DNA from: Nitrospirota bacterium
GTDB taxonomy: Bacteria; Nitrospirota; Thermodesulfovibrionia; Thermodesulfovibrionales; Dissulfurispiraceae
Direction: 5' to 3'
DNA: 64,000 nt
NCBI GenBank assembly: GCA_023476565.1
Contig: JAMCVZ010000014.1
Coordinates: 1 to 64,000 of the forward strand
A program made the translations under genes and the position numbers. Position 1 is the stretch's first letter, and each line of letters begins with the position of its first letter. Below, piece after piece: positions 29,862 through 47,516 of this stretch. The notes below the pieces were generated by a model. It was not told where the DNA came from. It made no database searches and was given only the letters and a program-made list of their open reading frames with translations.

Positions 29862-30568
29862 GGCGCCGTCTCCTCTATTGCGGGTGCGAGGTGCTCTTCG
29901 CGCGCGTCATACGGCGCGGCGATGCCGTGCTTGCGCACCCACAACAGGTGGACTCCCACGATGACCCCCACGATCAAAGGGAAGAGCACGATATGCATCG
30001 TTATTATCTGTCCGGGATTAAGCAGGTTAAAGAGCGACCCCGCGCCGGTCGAGTTGATCGCATCTTTGCCTTGCGTGGTGATCCACTGCGCTTCAAAGTC
30101 CTGTATCGACGCGTAGCCGGTGAAAGCCGTGACAACGCTGGTCATGAACGCCAGCACGCCCAGCATCCATGTTAACCAGCGCTTGCCGCGAAACGCACCC
30201 ATCAAGAACACGGTGATAAAGTGGACGAACATGAACAAAAAGAAAAGTTGTACCGACCAATAGTGCATGGCGTCGGTGTAGGCGCCGATCGCTGTGTTCA
30301 GCCACCACTCGGGCCCGAAAAAAGCCAGGATGATGCCGGTCACGACCAACATGACCAGCGACATCAGCGTCAGCATACCGAACACATAGAGCCAACTCTT
30401 GACATAGATCGGTTCTGTATCGGGCGCCAACTCTTGCACACGCCAGCTCTGGAGGAACCAGCGGCGGCTGCGACCGTCGAGTGTTTTACGTATTTCGGGC
30501 GGATACTTGCCGGGATCGTCAACAACGACGACTTTTTGCATTCCCCAGTCCTTGAATGGGTTTTTCAT
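29858..30568 (-). CDS. Cytochrome b/b6-type membrane subunit
   Basis: 236 residues with four membrane helices. Helix B has HYWSVQLFFLFMFVH (His pair 14 positions apart) and helix D has HIVLFPLIVGVIVGVH (15 apart), the two bis-histidine haem pairs of the cytochrome b N-terminal domain, with spacing like b6. It is short and lacks the C-terminal quinol domain, as in b6f-type split cytochromes. Partners: a 73-residue membrane protein upstream and the 320-residue protein downstream, all overlapping by four bases. No Rieske gene was seen. Confidence 0.85.
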   Translation of the reverse strand: MKNPFKDWGMQKVVVVDDPGKYPPEIRKTLDGRSRRWFLQSWRVQELAPDTEPIYVKSWLYVFGMLTLMSLVMLVVTGIILAFFGPEWWLNTAIGAYTDAMHYWSVQLFFLFMFVHFITVFLMGAFRGKRWLTWMLGVLAFMTSVVTAFTGYASIQDFEAQWITTQGKDAINSTGAGSLFNLLNPGQIITMHIVLFPLIVGVIVGVHLLWVRKHGIAAPYDAREEHLAPAIEETAP

Positions 30569-30786
30569 GACTCGCCCCCCTCCCCGGGCCGCTGATAGCC
30601 GGTGAAGTCGATTTCCTTCGCCGGGAACGGCAAGAAGAGACCCAAGACGACTAACAACGCCGCGAGCCCGAACCAGATCAGGTTAGGGAGTTGGATCAGA
30701 AACCACGGTATCCCAAACGTGTAGGTCGGGGCTGGCGTGCACAAGTTGATCAGACCTTCAGTCGTGCAGGGTGGAATAGGTGGCAT
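30565..30786 (-). CDS. Small membrane protein upstream of cytochrome b
   Basis: 73 residues: a Cys-containing extracytoplasmic start (PPCTTEGLINLCTPAPTYTF), one membrane helix (LIWFGLAALLVVLGLFLPF) and a short polar tail. No recognised family. Its stop overlaps the start of the cytochrome b gene, indicating a small subunit of that complex. Ribosome site AAGGAGG. Confidence 0.7.
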   Translation of the reverse strand: MPPIPPCTTEGLINLCTPAPTYTFGIPWFLIQLPNLIWFGLAALLVVLGLFLPFPAKEIDFTGYQRPGEGGES

Positions 30787-41085: not shown

Positions 41086-44000
41086 TGAATGTATTGGGGC
41101 CGGCAGGCAGGATAGCGAAGACCTTCATCAAATCAAAGCTTACGCCTTTGATTGTCATCGCATCGCTCCTTCTGGGCGTATTTGCGGTCATCGTCACCCC
41201 GAGGGAGGAAGAGCCGCAGATCGCCGTCCCCATGATCGATGTCCTGGTAAACTATCCCGGGGCATCAGCAAAGGAAGTGGAAGAGCGCGTAACAAAGCCC
41301 ATGGAAAAGCTCCTCTGGGAGATAAAAGGAGTCGAATACATCTATTCCATGTCAAAGCCCGGGGCGAGCATTGCAATCGTGCGGTTCTATGTGGGACAGG
41401 ACATGGAGAACAGCCTTGTCAAGCTTTACAACAAGCTCATGTCCCACTACGATATCATTCCGCCGGGAGTCTCCCGGCCCCTTGTCAAACCAAGGTCCAT
41501 AGATGATGTCCCCATCCTGACCTTCACGCTCTGGAGCGGCCGGTACAGCGGGTATGAGCTGAGAAGGGTCGCCGCCGAAGTAGCGGATGAGTTAAAGAAA
41601 GACAGCGATATATCCGAATTCACCATAATCGGCGGACAGAAGAGACAGGTGAAGATAAGCCTCAATCCCTCCCGCCTCAGGGCATATAATATCTCTCCCC
41701 CGCAGATAGCAGGAATGCTGCAGAAGGCCAATTTCATACTGCCTTCCGGCGCTTTCCCTTCGGACAACAGGGAGCTCCTGGTCGAAACCGGCGGGTTCCT
41801 CAAAAACACACAGGAAGTAGGGAATGTGGTCGTCGGCGTTTTCAATGATAAGCCTGTTTACCTGAAAGATATTTCTAATATAGCGGACGGGCCGGAGGAG
41901 CCCTCGAATTACGTTTTTATGGGCTTCGGCCCGGCCTCAAGCCGTGGAGGGCCCCCCCTCTCCTCCACGGCCCCCCCCTCTTTATCAACGGGCTCCGGCC
42001 AATACGAGGCCGTGACCATCGCCATCGCAAAGAAAAAAGGAACTAACGCGACCCATATCGCTGAAAGGACGCTGAAAAAGATAGAAGCGATCAAAGGGAA
42101 CATCATCCCGTCAGGCGTGGAGATCACAACCACGAGGAATTACGGAGATACCGCAAAAGAGAAGTCCGATGAGCTCCTCGAACATATGCTTATAGCAGCG
42201 ATTTCCGTGACCATACTGATCGCCCTTGCACTCGGCTGGAGGGAATCCATTGTGGTCGGCGTGGCGGTTCCGGTAACCCTTGCGCTCACCATACTCGTAA
42301 ATTACGCGTACGGCTATACGCTGAACAGGGTCACGCTCTTCGCCCTGATCTTTTCGATCGGCATCCTGGTCGACGACGCCATAGTGGTTGTTGAAAATAT
42401 TCATCGTCATTTCAGAATGGGCACGGTCGACCCCGAAACAGCGGTGCTCGCAGTGGATGAGGTCGGCAACCCGACCATACTGGCCACCTTCACCGTAATA
42501 GCAGCCCTCCTGCCCATGGCATTTGTCTCTGGACTGATGGGGCCGTACATGCGCCCGATACCTGTCGGCGCATCGGCTGCCATGCTGTTGTCTCTGCTTA
42601 TAGCCTTTATCATCAGCCCGTGGCTGAGTTACATAGTGCTGCGCGGGACAAAAAAAGACAGCGGGGCGCATATCGAGGAAAAAGAGAACAGGATGCTGAC
42701 GGCGCTCAACCACCTGTACGAGAAGAACCTCAGGGGCCTTCTCGAACATAAGAGGAAAAGACTTGTCGGGCTTCTCCTGGTGCTCCTGCTGATGGGTGGC
42801 GCAATCATGCTGGTGCCTCTGAAACTGGTCACGGTAAAAATGCTCCCCTTTGACAACAAGAGCGAACTGCAGGTCATCATCGATACGCCCGAAGGAACGG
42901 CCCTTGAGGAAACCGCGGCGCTCTCGCGGGAAATCGGCGAATACCTGAAGACCGTGCCGGAGGTCACCAATTATCAATTATACGTCGGAGCGGCGGCGCC
43001 GTTCAATTTCAACGGGCTGGTGCGGCATTATTTCATGAGGGCAAGCAGCAGCGGGGCGGATATCCAGGTCAATTTCGTCCCCAAGGGCGAGAGGAAGGCC
43101 CAGAGCCATGATATCGCAAAAAGGATCAGACCGGAGATCGACAGGATCGGCGAAAAATATCATGCGCGCATCAAAATTGTGGAAATCCCTCCGGGACCTC
43201 CGGTGCTGAGCACACTGGTAGCCGAGGTCTACGGACCTGATTTCAACAGGCAGATCGGGGTAGCGCGGGAGATCAAGGAAATATTTAAAAAGACCGGCGG
43301 GGTAGTCGATGTCGACTGGTATGTTGAGGACGACCAGAAAAAGATAACCTTTGATGTCGACAAAGAGAAGGCCGCGTATAACGGAATCAGCACCGAGGCT
43401 GTTTCGCAAACCCTCAGGATGGCCCTGGACGGCGCGGTTGCCGGGCTCGCCCATATTGAAAACGACAAAGAACCCGTCGAATTGTACCTGAGGACACCCC
43501 TTGCCGAAAGGGCGGGAATAGAACGCCTGAAGGAGATAGCCATTCCTTCGGGCAACGGGACCCCTGTCCCTCTTTCCGAGCTGGTCAAAGTAAAGGAGGG
43601 GATAGAGGACAAGACTATTTACCGGAAAAACCTCAAACGGGTGGTATACGTAACCGGAGATGTCGCCGGCACCGAAGAAAGCCCCGTATACGCCATACTT
43701 AAAATGAAAGAGATGATAAAAAATCTCAAGCTGCCCGAGGGCTACGAGTTGAAGCAGTATTCATCCGTCCAGCCGTGGATCGAGGACAAATACTCCATGA
43801 AGTGGGACGGCGAGTGGCACATCACCTATGAGGTCTTCAGGGACCTGGGTATAGCCTTCGCAGCGGTGCTGGTATTGATCTACATCATGGTGGTCGGCTG
43901 GTTTAAATCGTTTGTCGTTCCCATTGTCATCATGGCGCCGATCCCCCTCTCGCTGGTGGGAATCCTGCCGGGGCATGCCCTCATGGGCGCATTCTTCACC

Positions 44001-44321
44001 GCGACATCCATGATCGGGTTTATAGCCGGGGCAGGCATAGTCGTCAGGAATTCCATCATCCTGGTCGATTTCATCGAGCTCAAACTCTCCGAGGGTGTCC
44101 CGCTCAAAGAGGCGGTTGTGCAGGCGGGTATCATCAGGTTCAGGCCTATGCTCCTTACCGCAGCGGCCGTCGTCGTCGGTTCGTCGGTCATACTCTTCGA
44201 CCCCATATTCCAGGGCATGGCCATCTCACTGATGGCGGGCGAGGTGGCATCCACACTGCTTTCAAGGACCATGGTGCCGGTCCTTTACTATGTATATAAG
44301 AAACGGACAATAAAAGCATGA
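41085..44321 (+). CDS. RND efflux pump, inner-membrane permease
   Basis: 1078 residues, HAE/AcrB-like architecture: 12 helices in two halves and two large periplasmic loops. Signatures include [20 protein letters not shown] in TM4 with the two Asp of proton translocation, and [20 protein letters not shown] in the second half. It is coupled by a one-base overlap to the adaptor gene. Near residue 280-305 (41929-42003) there is a Gly/Ser/Pro-rich stretch encoded by a palindrome, which looks like an in-frame insertion. ArsR control suggests metal or metalloid stress, but the family exports many organic compounds; the substrate is undetermined. Confidence 0.92.
41942..41970. repeat. Palindrome within the RND gene
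   Basis: CCGTGGAGG (41942-41950) and CCTCCACGG (41962-41970) frame a C-rich centre. The encoded stretch [20 protein letters not shown] is low-complexity and, in my judgement, lies where homologues have a short loop. It is likely an inserted short repeat that kept the frame. Confidence 0.55.
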
Positions 44322-44342
44322 AACTGAATTGAGGAGGTTCAC

Positions 44343-44573
44343 ATGTACATTGCACAAACAGACAAATGGTATCTCGAAAGAATAGTATGGCTCATAGCCG
44401 GAGTATTCACGTTGTCCAGCGTCATACTGGCATGGGTCCACAGCCCCTACTGGCTGATCCTGACCGTGTTCGTGGGTATAAACCTGATAATATTTGCGCT
44501 CACGGGGTTCTGCCTTATGGCAAACATCCTGTATAAACTGGGGGCAAAACCGAGACTTCAGAAAAACCAGTAA
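44343..44573 (+). CDS. DUF2892 (YgaP-like) membrane protein
   Basis: 76 residues with two helices (IVWLIAGVFTLSSVILAWVH and LTVFVGINLIIFALTGFCLM) of the DUF2892 type, as in the C-terminal membrane part of YgaP. Often linked to metal/sulfur genes; no rhodanese domain here. It has a GAGGAGG ribosome site 21 bases after the RND gene, so it is probably in that operon. The gene ends eight bases before the left repeat of a transposase element. Confidence 0.85.
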   Translation: MYIAQTDKWYLERIVWLIAGVFTLSSVILAWVHSPYWLILTVFVGINLIIFALTGFCLMANILYKLGAKPRLQKNQ

Positions 44574-44580
44574 GGGGAGT

Positions 44581-45589
44581 GGGGTCAGACTTAACTATTG
44601 ACATTTGCCCTTTCCCCCTTTAACAATCTAATCACTTTCTCAATTTCCTCTTCCGATTGCGCTCTCTCTTTAAGATGCCTTGTTACTACTACCGGATCTT
44701 TTCTTATGAATTCTGCTATCTCTTTGTTCTTATAACCATACTCACTTGCTACAAGGCTCATCAGTCTCTTGCCAACCGATAGCTCCCTTGATTTGCTCCT
44801 TCTGCGTATCTGCTCCAAAGAGACCCCATACAATTCCTCCACCGCTCCGGCTACCTCCTCTAAAGTGTACTGCCTCTCCCTTCTTTTCCTGCTCACTTTA
44901 TCGGCGCTCTTCTTAATTACTCGATCAACAAACCTTTCATCTCCCAGTATCCTTTGCTCAACCGTGCTGTAAATATTCTCTTTCCTGATTGCCGCCTCAT
45001 CTCCCATGTAAGCTCTATAGAGTCTTCTTGCCGTTCCCTTATTCTCTGAAAATATTCGCAAAACCTGGTCAGTATCAACTATATCTTGCTCCTTTGTCTT
45101 TTGAATATAGCTCCGGTGGCTGCTCCATTGATACTCAGCAGGTGTCTTCGTTATCTTTGCCCTTACCGGGTTGCAATGGATATATTTAACCAGTGATTGC
45201 AAATACTCATCCCGGTCACAGAGGATTGCCTTATATCTCCCCTGAAAAAGATGGCCTACTGTTTTATATTTCCTGTTGAAATACATGGTATAGCTCTGGT
45301 TAATACCCTGGAGTATCTTTGATAGCGGCGTCTTTTGCATCTCTATGAGCACATGCACATGATTGCTCATCAACACATAGGCATAGAGAAGAAATCCATA
45401 TCTCTCTTTATATAGGGATAGTATCTCAAGATATTGCAGGAAGTCGTCTGGTGCCTTGAATATCTTCTGCTTCTGGTTTCCACGTATGATGACGTGATAA
45501 AATGCTCCCTCAAATTCGATTCGTGCTTTTCGTGCCATGCTGAAGAATAGCAGAGGATTTTCTAAATGTCAATAGTTAAGTCTGACCCC
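44581..45589 (-). mobile_element. REP-associated transposase element with 26-bp perfect inverted ends
   Basis: The ends 44581-44606 (starts GGGGTCAGACTTAAC) and 45564-45589 are exact inverted copies of 26 bases. A single Y1 transposase gene lies between. It is inserted at the 3' end of the dinG-like gene, whose last codons and stop come from the right end. A 13-bp perfect tandem duplication (CCCCATAAAGATT at 45586-45598 and 45599-45611) lies at the junction. Confidence 0.85.
44591..45538 (-). CDS. REP-associated tyrosine transposase (RAYT)
   Basis: 315 residues. MARKARIEFEGAFYHVIIRG at the start and HVHVLIEMQKTPLSKI with the HUH metal motif define Y1-type transposases; the catalytic Tyr is probably in SLVKYIHCNPVRAKI. 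A C-terminal DnaA-like helix-turn-helix region (ASEYGYKNKEIAEFIRKDPV) is present. RAYTs act on short palindromic sequences. It is the only visible transposase, so it may be responsible for some repeat families in the window. Its stop lies inside the left inverted end. Confidence 0.93.
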   Translation of the reverse strand: MARKARIEFEGAFYHVIIRGNQKQKIFKAPDDFLQYLEILSLYKERYGFLLYAYVLMSNHVHVLIEMQKTPLSKILQGINQSYTMYFNRKYKTVGHLFQGRYKAILCDRDEYLQSLVKYIHCNPVRAKITKTPAEYQWSSHRSYIQKTKEQDIVDTDQVLRIFSENKGTARRLYRAYMGDEAAIRKENIYSTVEQRILGDERFVDRVIKKSADKVSRKRRERQYTLEEVAGAVEELYGVSLEQIRRRSKSRELSVGKRLMSLVASEYGYKNKEIAEFIRKDPVVVTRHLKERAQSEEEIEKVIRLLKGERANVNS

Positions 45590-47516
45590 ATAAAGATTCC
45601 CCATAAAGATTCCATAAAGACTCCAGAAACTTCCGCCCGTACGCCATGGTCTCGATCCGCTCATCGCAGATGATCACCCTGCCGCTGTCGTCCCTGGAGC
45701 GTATCAGCCTCCCGAACCCCTGCTTGAATTTGAGCACGGCCCGCGGCACCGAATACTCGTAGAATGAGTTCCCGCCCCTCCTGTCGATTTCCTCTGTCCT
45801 CGCCTTTGCGATCGGCTCTGTAGGGACTTCGAAGGGCAGTTTTGTGATGATCAGGCATTTAAGCGCATCCCCCTTCACATCCACCCCTTCCCAGAAAGAA
45901 TCGAGGCCGAAGATGACACTGTTTTCGCTCTCCCTCATGATCTCGAGCATGAGACTGTTCGGCATCTCGCCCTGGATCATGGGATTAAGCTCCATATCGG
46001 TCAGTTCATCGAGCGCCGATTCCCAGGTCTTTTTCATTACATCCCTCGAGGTGAAGAGCACGAGCACACCGCCGTCTTTTTTAGATGCCTCTGCAATTAT
46101 CACTTCGGCGAGCCTCTCTATGCTGCCGGGGGTTTTAAGATTTATGCCCCTTTTGATTTCAACGGCGACCTGCTTGCGGATATCAAACGGAGAGGGGACG
46201 GCTACCCTTTCAGATTCCTCAAGCCCGAGCACATTCGTGATAAAACCGAAATCGCCCGATACCGAAAGCGTTGCGGAGGTGAGTATCATTGCCTGGTGCT
46301 CCGGCACGATGCTGTTCGTTACAAAGTCTCTCGGATAGACCGGCGACATCCTGAGCGCGATCCTCCTGTCCTCTATATCGGCCCACCTTACAAAACCGGC
46401 AGTCCCCTCCAACGGCCCCTCGCTGATCGCCTCCATGCCGTCCGCAAAGGCCTTGAGCTTGATCAGCGCCGCCTTCATCTCAAGCTCATCATCTTCCTGA
46501 AAAAGCCCTGTTGTGCCGGTCTTCATCTGCTCGATGAGGTTATTTATCGAGCCGGAGAGGTCCATCATCATATCCTTGAATCTGAATTTTCCTTTTATTG
46601 TCACCCTGTGGGTTAAATTACCCTTCACCTGGACCCACAAGAGCCCCATCTCTGTCCTCAGGTTTTCGACGGCTGCAAACAGGTGCGGTGATTGAGCGAG
46701 GAGCCCCCTGTACGTGCCCCGCTCATCAAGCCTCAGGAATTTGTTCATGATATAGTCGAATCCCCTGTTTGAGAGGGTTATGCCCGCTACCTCCGACAGC
46801 ACATGATCAAGGGCGTGCGCCTCATCAATGATCAGCGCATCCGCGCAGGGCAGGATTTTCGAATCCTCGGCGAGCATGGCGTTGATGCCGACCAGGGCAT
46901 GGTTTGCGACAACGATCTGCGCCTTTTCCCATTTCTGCCGTGCGGCGAAATAAAAGCATTTGCCGAAAAAGCCGCATTGCAGGCCCTTGCACGCGTCAGA
47001 ATCGGAACATACCTTGTCCCAGATGGAAATCCTTTTCAACCCGCAATCCTCTCTATCTCCTGTCTTCGCCTTTGGGGCCCACCTCAGCAGCCCCGCATAT
47101 TCCTCTCCCTCTGTTTCATCAGCGGCCCTGAATGCATTGAGCCGCCTTAAACAGAGGTAGTTCCCCCTTCCCTTCGCTATGGCATAATCGAACTCCCTCA
47201 GGCCGGAAAGAAATTTCAGATCCTTTGAGATTATCTGCTCCTGGAGATTTATCGTCCTTGTGGAGATAAGCGCGCGCTTGCCGGAAAGCATCAAAGGAAC
47301 AAGGTAGGCGAAGGTCTTGCCCGTGCCTGTGCCTGCTTCCGCCAGCAGAGTTCCGCCTCTCTCAAGGGTTTTAGAGCATGCCCTCATCATCTCCAGTTGC
47401 GGCTGCCTGAGCTCATAATTCTCCATCGCAGCCCCTACGGCTTCTGTCAGAAACCGTTCCGCATGGCGCGAGAGATCTGAGGGGATATCGTTGCCGTCTA
47501 TATTATAGTTGTCCAA
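45576..47516 (-). CDS. DinG/XPD-type ATP-dependent DNA helicase
   Basis: 646 residues. Walker A EAGTGTGKTFAYLVPL, DEAH box IIDEAHALDH, and four Cys (CGLKRI, VCSDSDACKGLQC and FGKC region) consistent with the Fe-S domain of DinG/XPD helicases. C-terminal motifs include FGLDSFWEGVDVKGDALK and FGRLIRSRDDSGRV. It unwinds DNA with 5'-3' polarity. The last residues (GESLWGQT) and the stop are encoded by the inverted end of the transposase element, so the natural C-terminus has been replaced or slightly shortened. Confidence 0.93.
   Translation of the reverse strand: MDNYNIDGNDIPSDLSRHAERFLTEAVGAAMENYELRQPQLEMMRACSKTLERGGTLLAEAGTGTGKTFAYLVPLMLSGKRALISTRTINLQEQIISKDLKFLSGLREFDYAIAKGRGNYLCLRRLNAFRAADETEGEEYAGLLRWAPKAKTGDREDCGLKRISIWDKVCSDSDACKGLQCGFFGKCFYFAARQKWEKAQIVVANHALVGINAMLAEDSKILPCADALIIDEAHALDHVLSEVAGITLSNRGFDYIMNKFLRLDERGTYRGLLAQSPHLFAAVENLRTEMGLLWVQVKGNLTHRVTIKGKFRFKDMMMDLSGSINNLIEQMKTGTTGLFQEDDELEMKAALIKLKAFADGMEAISEGPLEGTAGFVRWADIEDRRIALRMSPVYPRDFVTNSIVPEHQAMILTSATLSVSGDFGFITNVLGLEESERVAVPSPFDIRKQVAVEIKRGINLKTPGSIERLAEVIIAEASKKDGGVLVLFTSRDVMKKTWESALDELTDMELNPMIQGEMPNSLMLEIMRESENSVIFGLDSFWEGVDVKGDALKCLIITKLPFEVPTEPIAKARTEEIDRRGGNSFYEYSVPRAVLKFKQGFGRLIRSRDDSGRVIICDERIETMAYGRKFLESLWNLYGESLWGQT

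Follow-up and report, generated by a model that had tools for sequence, protein, structure and literature searches.

The window, i.e., the whole stretch of 64,000 nucleotides of Nitrospirota DNA analysed here, carries an intact and recently mobile TIRYT, a Y1/HUH transposon of the RAYT group that consists of one gene between terminal inverted repeats (TIRs). At elements of this kind, the DNA of the outer junction is tandemly duplicated at about one end in five. Excision does not coincide precisely with the repeat, as copies of one end type in the same genome often have another 2-13 bp of flanking sequence in common, termed X below. The family itself is already known as TIRYT or TIRtron, within TnpA-Y1 subclass 2.1. 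The junction pattern is new as far as the literature was searched: no description of it was found in the open-access library searched, and a search for GGGGTCAG combined with transposase gave nothing relevant among the matches listed. The junction signature is statistically strong; the mechanism is what we infer from it.

The element spans 1011 bp (44580-45590), with the adjoining tandem repeats counted as flank (Table 1). An earlier, sequence-only reading had described perfect inverted repeats of 26 bp; the repeats are indeed perfect, with 100% complementarity, but they measure 27 nt. Separated by 957 nt, they form the sole inverted pair of at least 12 nt within 44000-46200, and a perfect 27-bp pair would not be expected by chance in 2.2 kb; the recurrence of these ends in this genome and in others of the phylum, given below, likewise speaks against chance. 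The repeats start with GGGGTCAG, and their inner half contains a TTGACA that is conserved in most ends and that, in the start-codon-side repeat, is positioned to form the -35 element of a promoter-like sequence serving the transposase gene. The perfect 13-bp tandem duplication reported at the junction was located at 45588-45613, adjoining the right repeat, where CCATAAAGATTCC occupies 45588-45600 and 45601-45613 and is followed by a third copy with 92% identity at 45612-45624. An Rfam search of 43500-46500 gave no match.

Table 1. Positions of the element, its parts and the neighbouring genes in the window.
Feature	Position	Strand	Basis or remark
Left terminal inverted repeat (stop-codon side), TGGGGTCAGACTTAACTATTGACATTT	44580..44606	+	inverted-repeat search; recurs in own genome
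Right terminal inverted repeat (start-codon side)	45564..45590	-	holds the last four dinG codons (WGQT) and TAA
TIRYT/RAYT transposase gene, 315 aa	44591..45538	-	ORF list and domain search
Iterated outer flank at right junction: array of a 13-bp unit (2 perfect copies, a third at 92%)	45588..45624	-	
Outer flank at left junction, AGGGGAG	44573..44579	+	GGGAG next to TGGGG also in the contig C31 copy
dinG-like helicase gene, end altered by the element	45576..47516	-	ORF, 646 aa
76-aa gene beyond the left end	44343..44573	+	
Promoter-like site TTGACA-17-TATTCT with TG, -35 within right repeat	45544..45572	-	consensus match only

The gene had been assigned to the RAYT class, and the domain searches agree: the protein matches Pfam Y1_Tnp (E 3.9e-17) and scores 76.7 bits against the NCBIfam model REP_Tyr_transpos (REP-associated tyrosine transposase), just under the cut-off of 80. 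On its Y1_Tnp core it bears NHVH and the class 2 Y...NP motif, and the HUH residues H60 and H62 as well as Y119, N123 and P124 are invariant across nine aligned sequences. The C-terminal part is HTH-like; its match to Bac_DnaA_C reaches 20.4 bits, below the 31.5 set by Pfam, and a C-terminal profile matches four DnaA chains at E about 0.002-0.004. These weak but consistent matches suggest an HTH resembling domain IV of DnaA. The inverted ends, regarded in the sequence-only reading as unusual for a RAYT, have in fact been on record for years. RAYT-like genes between long TIRs with GGGGWSAS, a motif that GGGGTCAG fits in the element studied here, were named TIRYT or TIRtron by Di Nocera (2013, PMC3733652), and Quentin (2018, PMC6006769) placed them in TnpA-Y1 subclass 2.1, which is characterised by NHVH, Y[IV]HLNP, HTH-like tails and, in the available part of that source, no REP hairpins.

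Two other placements were rejected. The ends do not belong to a GTAG REPtron: they begin with GGGGTCAG and not with GTAG, and instead of high-copy REPs the 2.67 Mb genome contains just six end matches with at most three mismatches. In hairpin folding of DNA, five single ends did no better than shuffled sequences (z from 0.68 to -1.87), so recognition of a REP-like hairpin is unsupported. Nor is the element a classical IS200/IS605 member, having TIRs, ends that are at most weak hairpins and Y...NP instead of Y...Q; the IS200/IS605 motif is given as Y...Q (PMC6006769), and the group is described, in the part of the source available, as having neither terminal inverted repeats nor larger target duplications (PMC2817692).

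Elsewhere in the genome, partial copies with these ends occur on contig C31 (206 bp of one end at 100% identity), on C57 (a remnant of the other end) and on C43 (a short piece carrying both ends, 30521-30645). Together with the dinG genes of 11 family relatives, which end without the element, these copies bear out the suggestion of a recently mobile RAYT. A search for further copies of the ends had been proposed, and elsewhere they were found both with and without the gene; neither are the ends confined to this locus nor are the relatives arranged in the same way, the two observations that had been named as telling against mobility. Relatives of the transposase at E 1e-60 or better are present in 35 of 295 genomes of the phylum. 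The end pattern was detected in 20 of 27 chosen genomes; when 395 genomes of the phylum were scanned with a stricter version, 38 carried it and the control pattern was absent from every one. A single genome has up to 14 ends.

Several side observations concern these copies. The C31 copy (L002 1240-1530) is broken about 206 bp in by what appears by eye to be the start of a mutator-type (IS256-like) transposase. In genomes such as G211 and G198, many end copies are found no more than a few hundred bases from the end of a contig, a distribution that assemblies interrupted at near-identical copies would produce. At locus L267 (G116 C71), a DDE-type transposase gene apparently lies between ends starting with GGGGACAGCGAC, the left one preceded by purine-rich repeats, which is possibly a GGGG-type end pair with another gene.

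As had been read from the sequence, the right end of the element supplies the WGQT codons and the stop of the dinG-like gene, whose TAA (45576-45578) is inside the right repeat and whose product terminates in FLESLWNLYGESLWGQT. Homologues terminate in FLES(I/V)F* or similar. The claim that the 3' end of the helicase gene was replaced thus stands as an alteration but not as a large replacement: only about two residues and the stop were exchanged, and the protein became longer by about 11 residues. A 440-bp fragment from the 3' part of dinG on contig C18, 99.5% identical and without the element, ends in FLESIF* and likely retains the ancestral end. This suggests that dinG was altered recently, provided that C18 truly belongs to the genome (contamination estimate 2.1%). 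The fragment (L003 1117-1580) is situated after an end-like GGGGCCGGTTCTTTTTATTTGACA and a frame that looks Rhs-like by eye, and before a secretin-like gene.

Of the comparison with empty sites, one half succeeded: relatives do have dinG without the element, but a clean insertion between two old neighbours was not found. The dinG gene of the sister species G301 has the same HU neighbour and is followed by different DNA, and no relative shows the two flanks of the window joined. The site is a synteny break; therefore a clean insertion into an empty site is not seen, and rearrangement or gene loss is possible. The junction in the window could be a scar of rearrangement or deletion, left by recombination between two copies, in place of a fresh insertion. 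The left 76-aa gene is followed in G301 and G300 by a dsrE-like gene (named by eye) and not by dinG, and this dsrE-like gene was sought in the window's own genome and not found; no left-side gene was seen beside dinG in the stretch examined in 11 relatives; and the flank at the left junction recurs at C31 but that at the right junction at C57, two different copies, all of which speaks for the scar. On the other side, insertion with subsequent local gene loss is compatible with the same data, and the assembly, in 73 contigs, is 96% complete. We give the scar a little less than an even chance; it concerns this site alone and is compatible with the best explanation of the ends in general.

The 13-bp repeat had been taken for a possible trace of insertion, and it fits a general junction pattern. 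In the larger of two sets, 154 distinct ends were compared with 4311 control GGG sites: an exact duplication of at least 9 nt reaching the end was found at 31 ends vs 37 controls, and one of at least 12 nt at 24 ends vs 6 controls; this pattern drops ends with less than 85 bases of flank and misses some iterated ends of the first set (e.g., L025, L105, L113). The first set comprised 78 ends at 39 loci, reduced to 67 ends after 11 without a readable end or with too little flank were dropped. There, the last 14 outer bases recur over at least 10 nt in the preceding flank at 17 of 67 ends vs 2 of 2193 control GGG sites (16/65 vs 2/2193 without a duplicate, as L026 and L091 look like one place). 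In 24 end pairs with a spacing of 920-1070 bp, iteration affects one end or more in 11 pairs and both ends in three, and about 80% of ends have no duplication. None of four ends of other TIR types (loci L032 and L034) was iterated. Assembly error was rejected as the general cause, as an array is also present in the one-contig genome G250 (L132).

Thirteen ends of other Y1 elements or end copies in the window's own genome include two that carry exact duplications of 16 nt or longer and another two whose duplications measure 8 nt. Two observations from this genome are recorded in their own right. Another Y1 element with GGGTCAGGTCTTGAAA ends (L022 920-1010, G000 C48) bears an array of GGGGTCAT units at one end. 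At L019 340-431 (G000 C63), REPIN-like inverted ends GGTAAAGGGGACGGTTCTATTTA lie 28 bases apart, with a 16-bp duplication at the left junction and the same end copied nearby.

The repeat units, 7-39 bp long, combine outer flank (X) and the G-run with anything from none to about 16 bases of the repeat; inside the element their match stops between 3 bases before and 16 bases after the G-run/TCAG border. Arrays have up to six copies, which mostly share a start base in the flank and differ in their stops; in one six-copy array the stops fall at +3 (four times) and inside the G-run. By eye, no common sequence was apparent at the unit starts. By our own reading of the arrays, TIR bases are present within the units of about 14 of 31 arrays, and those arrays were thus formed with or after insertion.

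X is defined as the flank beyond the G-run that is common to copies in the same genome and differs between genomes. For pairs of the same end type in the same genome, the shared stretch past the G-run averages 4.8 bases; it is at least 5 nt in 11 of 25 cases and at most 3 nt in 10 of 25. Between genomes, at least 5 nt are shared by 26 of 6894 pairs with unlike interiors and by none of three with like interiors. In the window, the right junction has 11 bases before the G-run in common with C57, and the left junction has 6 bases in common with C31. Since same-genome copies of one end type often share X, the cut does not lie exactly at the repeat. Same-genome pairs with unlike interiors reach at least 5 nt as well, in 14 of 338 cases, so that end type accounts for the sharing only in part. 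Some of the sharing could reflect an extension of the end that is specific to a lineage, and across all ends AT precedes GGGG more often than chance would predict. A search for empty sites in the sister species, made with five pieces, gave one usable site, that of C31, whereas one piece matched the source locus itself and the remaining ones had an unclear match or none. In G301 the empty C31 site reveals the target sequence, and the C31 array consists of this target sequence joined to X, the same X as at the left end of the window, with both repeated.

We hypothesize that the transposase would nick the strand a few bases outside GGGG and hold the 5' end of X plus element, a position that would explain both the carried flank and the duplication of flank and repeat tip. 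Were the held 5' end passed to a target, X would travel along. In an incomplete reaction, the free 3' end of the host strand may be extended across X and the repeat tip until synthesis halts at the bound protein, and religation of the new end to the held 5' end would add one unit; repeated rounds would then build arrays with a constant start and variable stops. The nick position, primer extension and religation are all inferred from the arrangement of the junctions. The whole explanation, a mobile TIRYT with a nick outside its repeat and arrays made by nicking, extension and religation, is tentatively preferred, at only just short of an even chance. Its extension to TIRYTs as a rule, i.e., a cut several bases outside the TIR at no fixed sequence, with fresh flank carried along and the junction copied in situ by nick, extension and religation, is possible and on balance doubtful.

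The main and serious rival keeps the mobile TIRYT and ascribes the arrays to slippage of host replication at paired ends or at the G-run, independently of the transposase. Long inverted pairs of any kind can stall replication, the units are short, the leftover matches of 0-3 nt at many duplications could be microhomology, and GTGG in the C31 target matches GTGG at the tip of the element. However, these leftover matches are often 0 nt, and the ends are weak hairpins. Slippage could moreover act on both sides of the repeat, yet duplication was found at 0 of 148 inner boundaries vs 30 of 148 outer ones. Ends at DDE transposase genes of related genomes were iterated in 0 of 18 cases, which is a small and imperfect control, as it draws on the 9 of 30 loci with a TIR-like pair, some of these pairs being doubtful and probably spurious. 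We consider slippage a possibility of real weight that is somewhat doubtful as the source of the arrays.

It is improbable that the arrays arose by nested transposition, in which a copy carrying X inserts at or beside a resident end and recombination between the near-identical copies then deletes all but a fragment of the end. Such a course would suit the units with 12-16 end bases (L027, L114, L209) and the repeated ends near each other in G113 C16 and G130 C1, but each unit would require an insertion and a near-complete deletion, and many units have no TIR base beyond the G-run. Preferential landing beside pre-existing tandem repeats, for which the roughly half of arrays without a TIR base beyond the G-run could be cited, was rejected as highly improbable because of the TIR bases inside the units of the other arrays and because repeats of this kind are absent both from the empty sites at dinG and from the empty C31 site of the sister species.

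Most descriptions treat RAYTs as domesticated genes, and an explanation is still wanted for the way in which they mobilise REP sequences or assemble tandem clusters. Relatives of theirs that have well-defined ends, recent copies and a strong one-sided junction signature offer a testable system for the position of cleavage, for strand transfer and for how tandem units originate. The junction signature is in addition a simple marker of the outer boundary of such elements in genomes. If the extension of the mechanism to TIRYTs as a rule is true, the junction arrays would record abortive rounds in the genome and would act, on a small scale, as a source of the still unexplained tandem REP/REPIN clusters.

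The element agrees with the TIRYT/TIRtron of Di Nocera (PMC3733652) in its RAYT-like gene flanked by GGGGWSAS TIRs and in TIRs that also occur as separate copies. That account, in the part available, reports TIR dimers and clusters and, unlike the present data, neither duplication of the flank, shared flank nor empty sites. With TnpA-Y1 subclass 2.1 (PMC6006769) it shares NHVH, Y-I-H-x-N-P, a long Bac_DnaA_C-like C-terminal domain and the lack of REP hairpins, whereas class 2 is described there as low in copy number (2.3 excepted) and in intragenomic identity, and here the partial copies are near-identical. The Y1/HUH core is common to IS200/IS605 elements such as IS608, in which a guide sequence 5' of the end selects the cleavage sites (PMC8266576). 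TnpA-REP enzymes are reported to cleave at several sites 5' and 3' of the REP, some of them distant, with a tetranucleotide 5' of the palindrome helping to choose them (PMC8266576). The proposed mechanism resembles the model of Nunvar (2010, PMC2817692) for BIME growth, in which a RAYT nick provides a primer 3'-OH and is followed by religation; that model, however, was made for GTAG REPs and whole BIME modules, and the same study found RAYTs to have no IS-like mobility. The arrays likewise recall the tandem REPIN clusters of Bertels and Rainey (2011, PMC3116915), flank-containing tandem repeats beside RAYT-related elements that are attributed there to an unknown second mechanism. The units of those clusters are whole REPINs plus flank, whereas the present units join flank to a fragment of the element's end.
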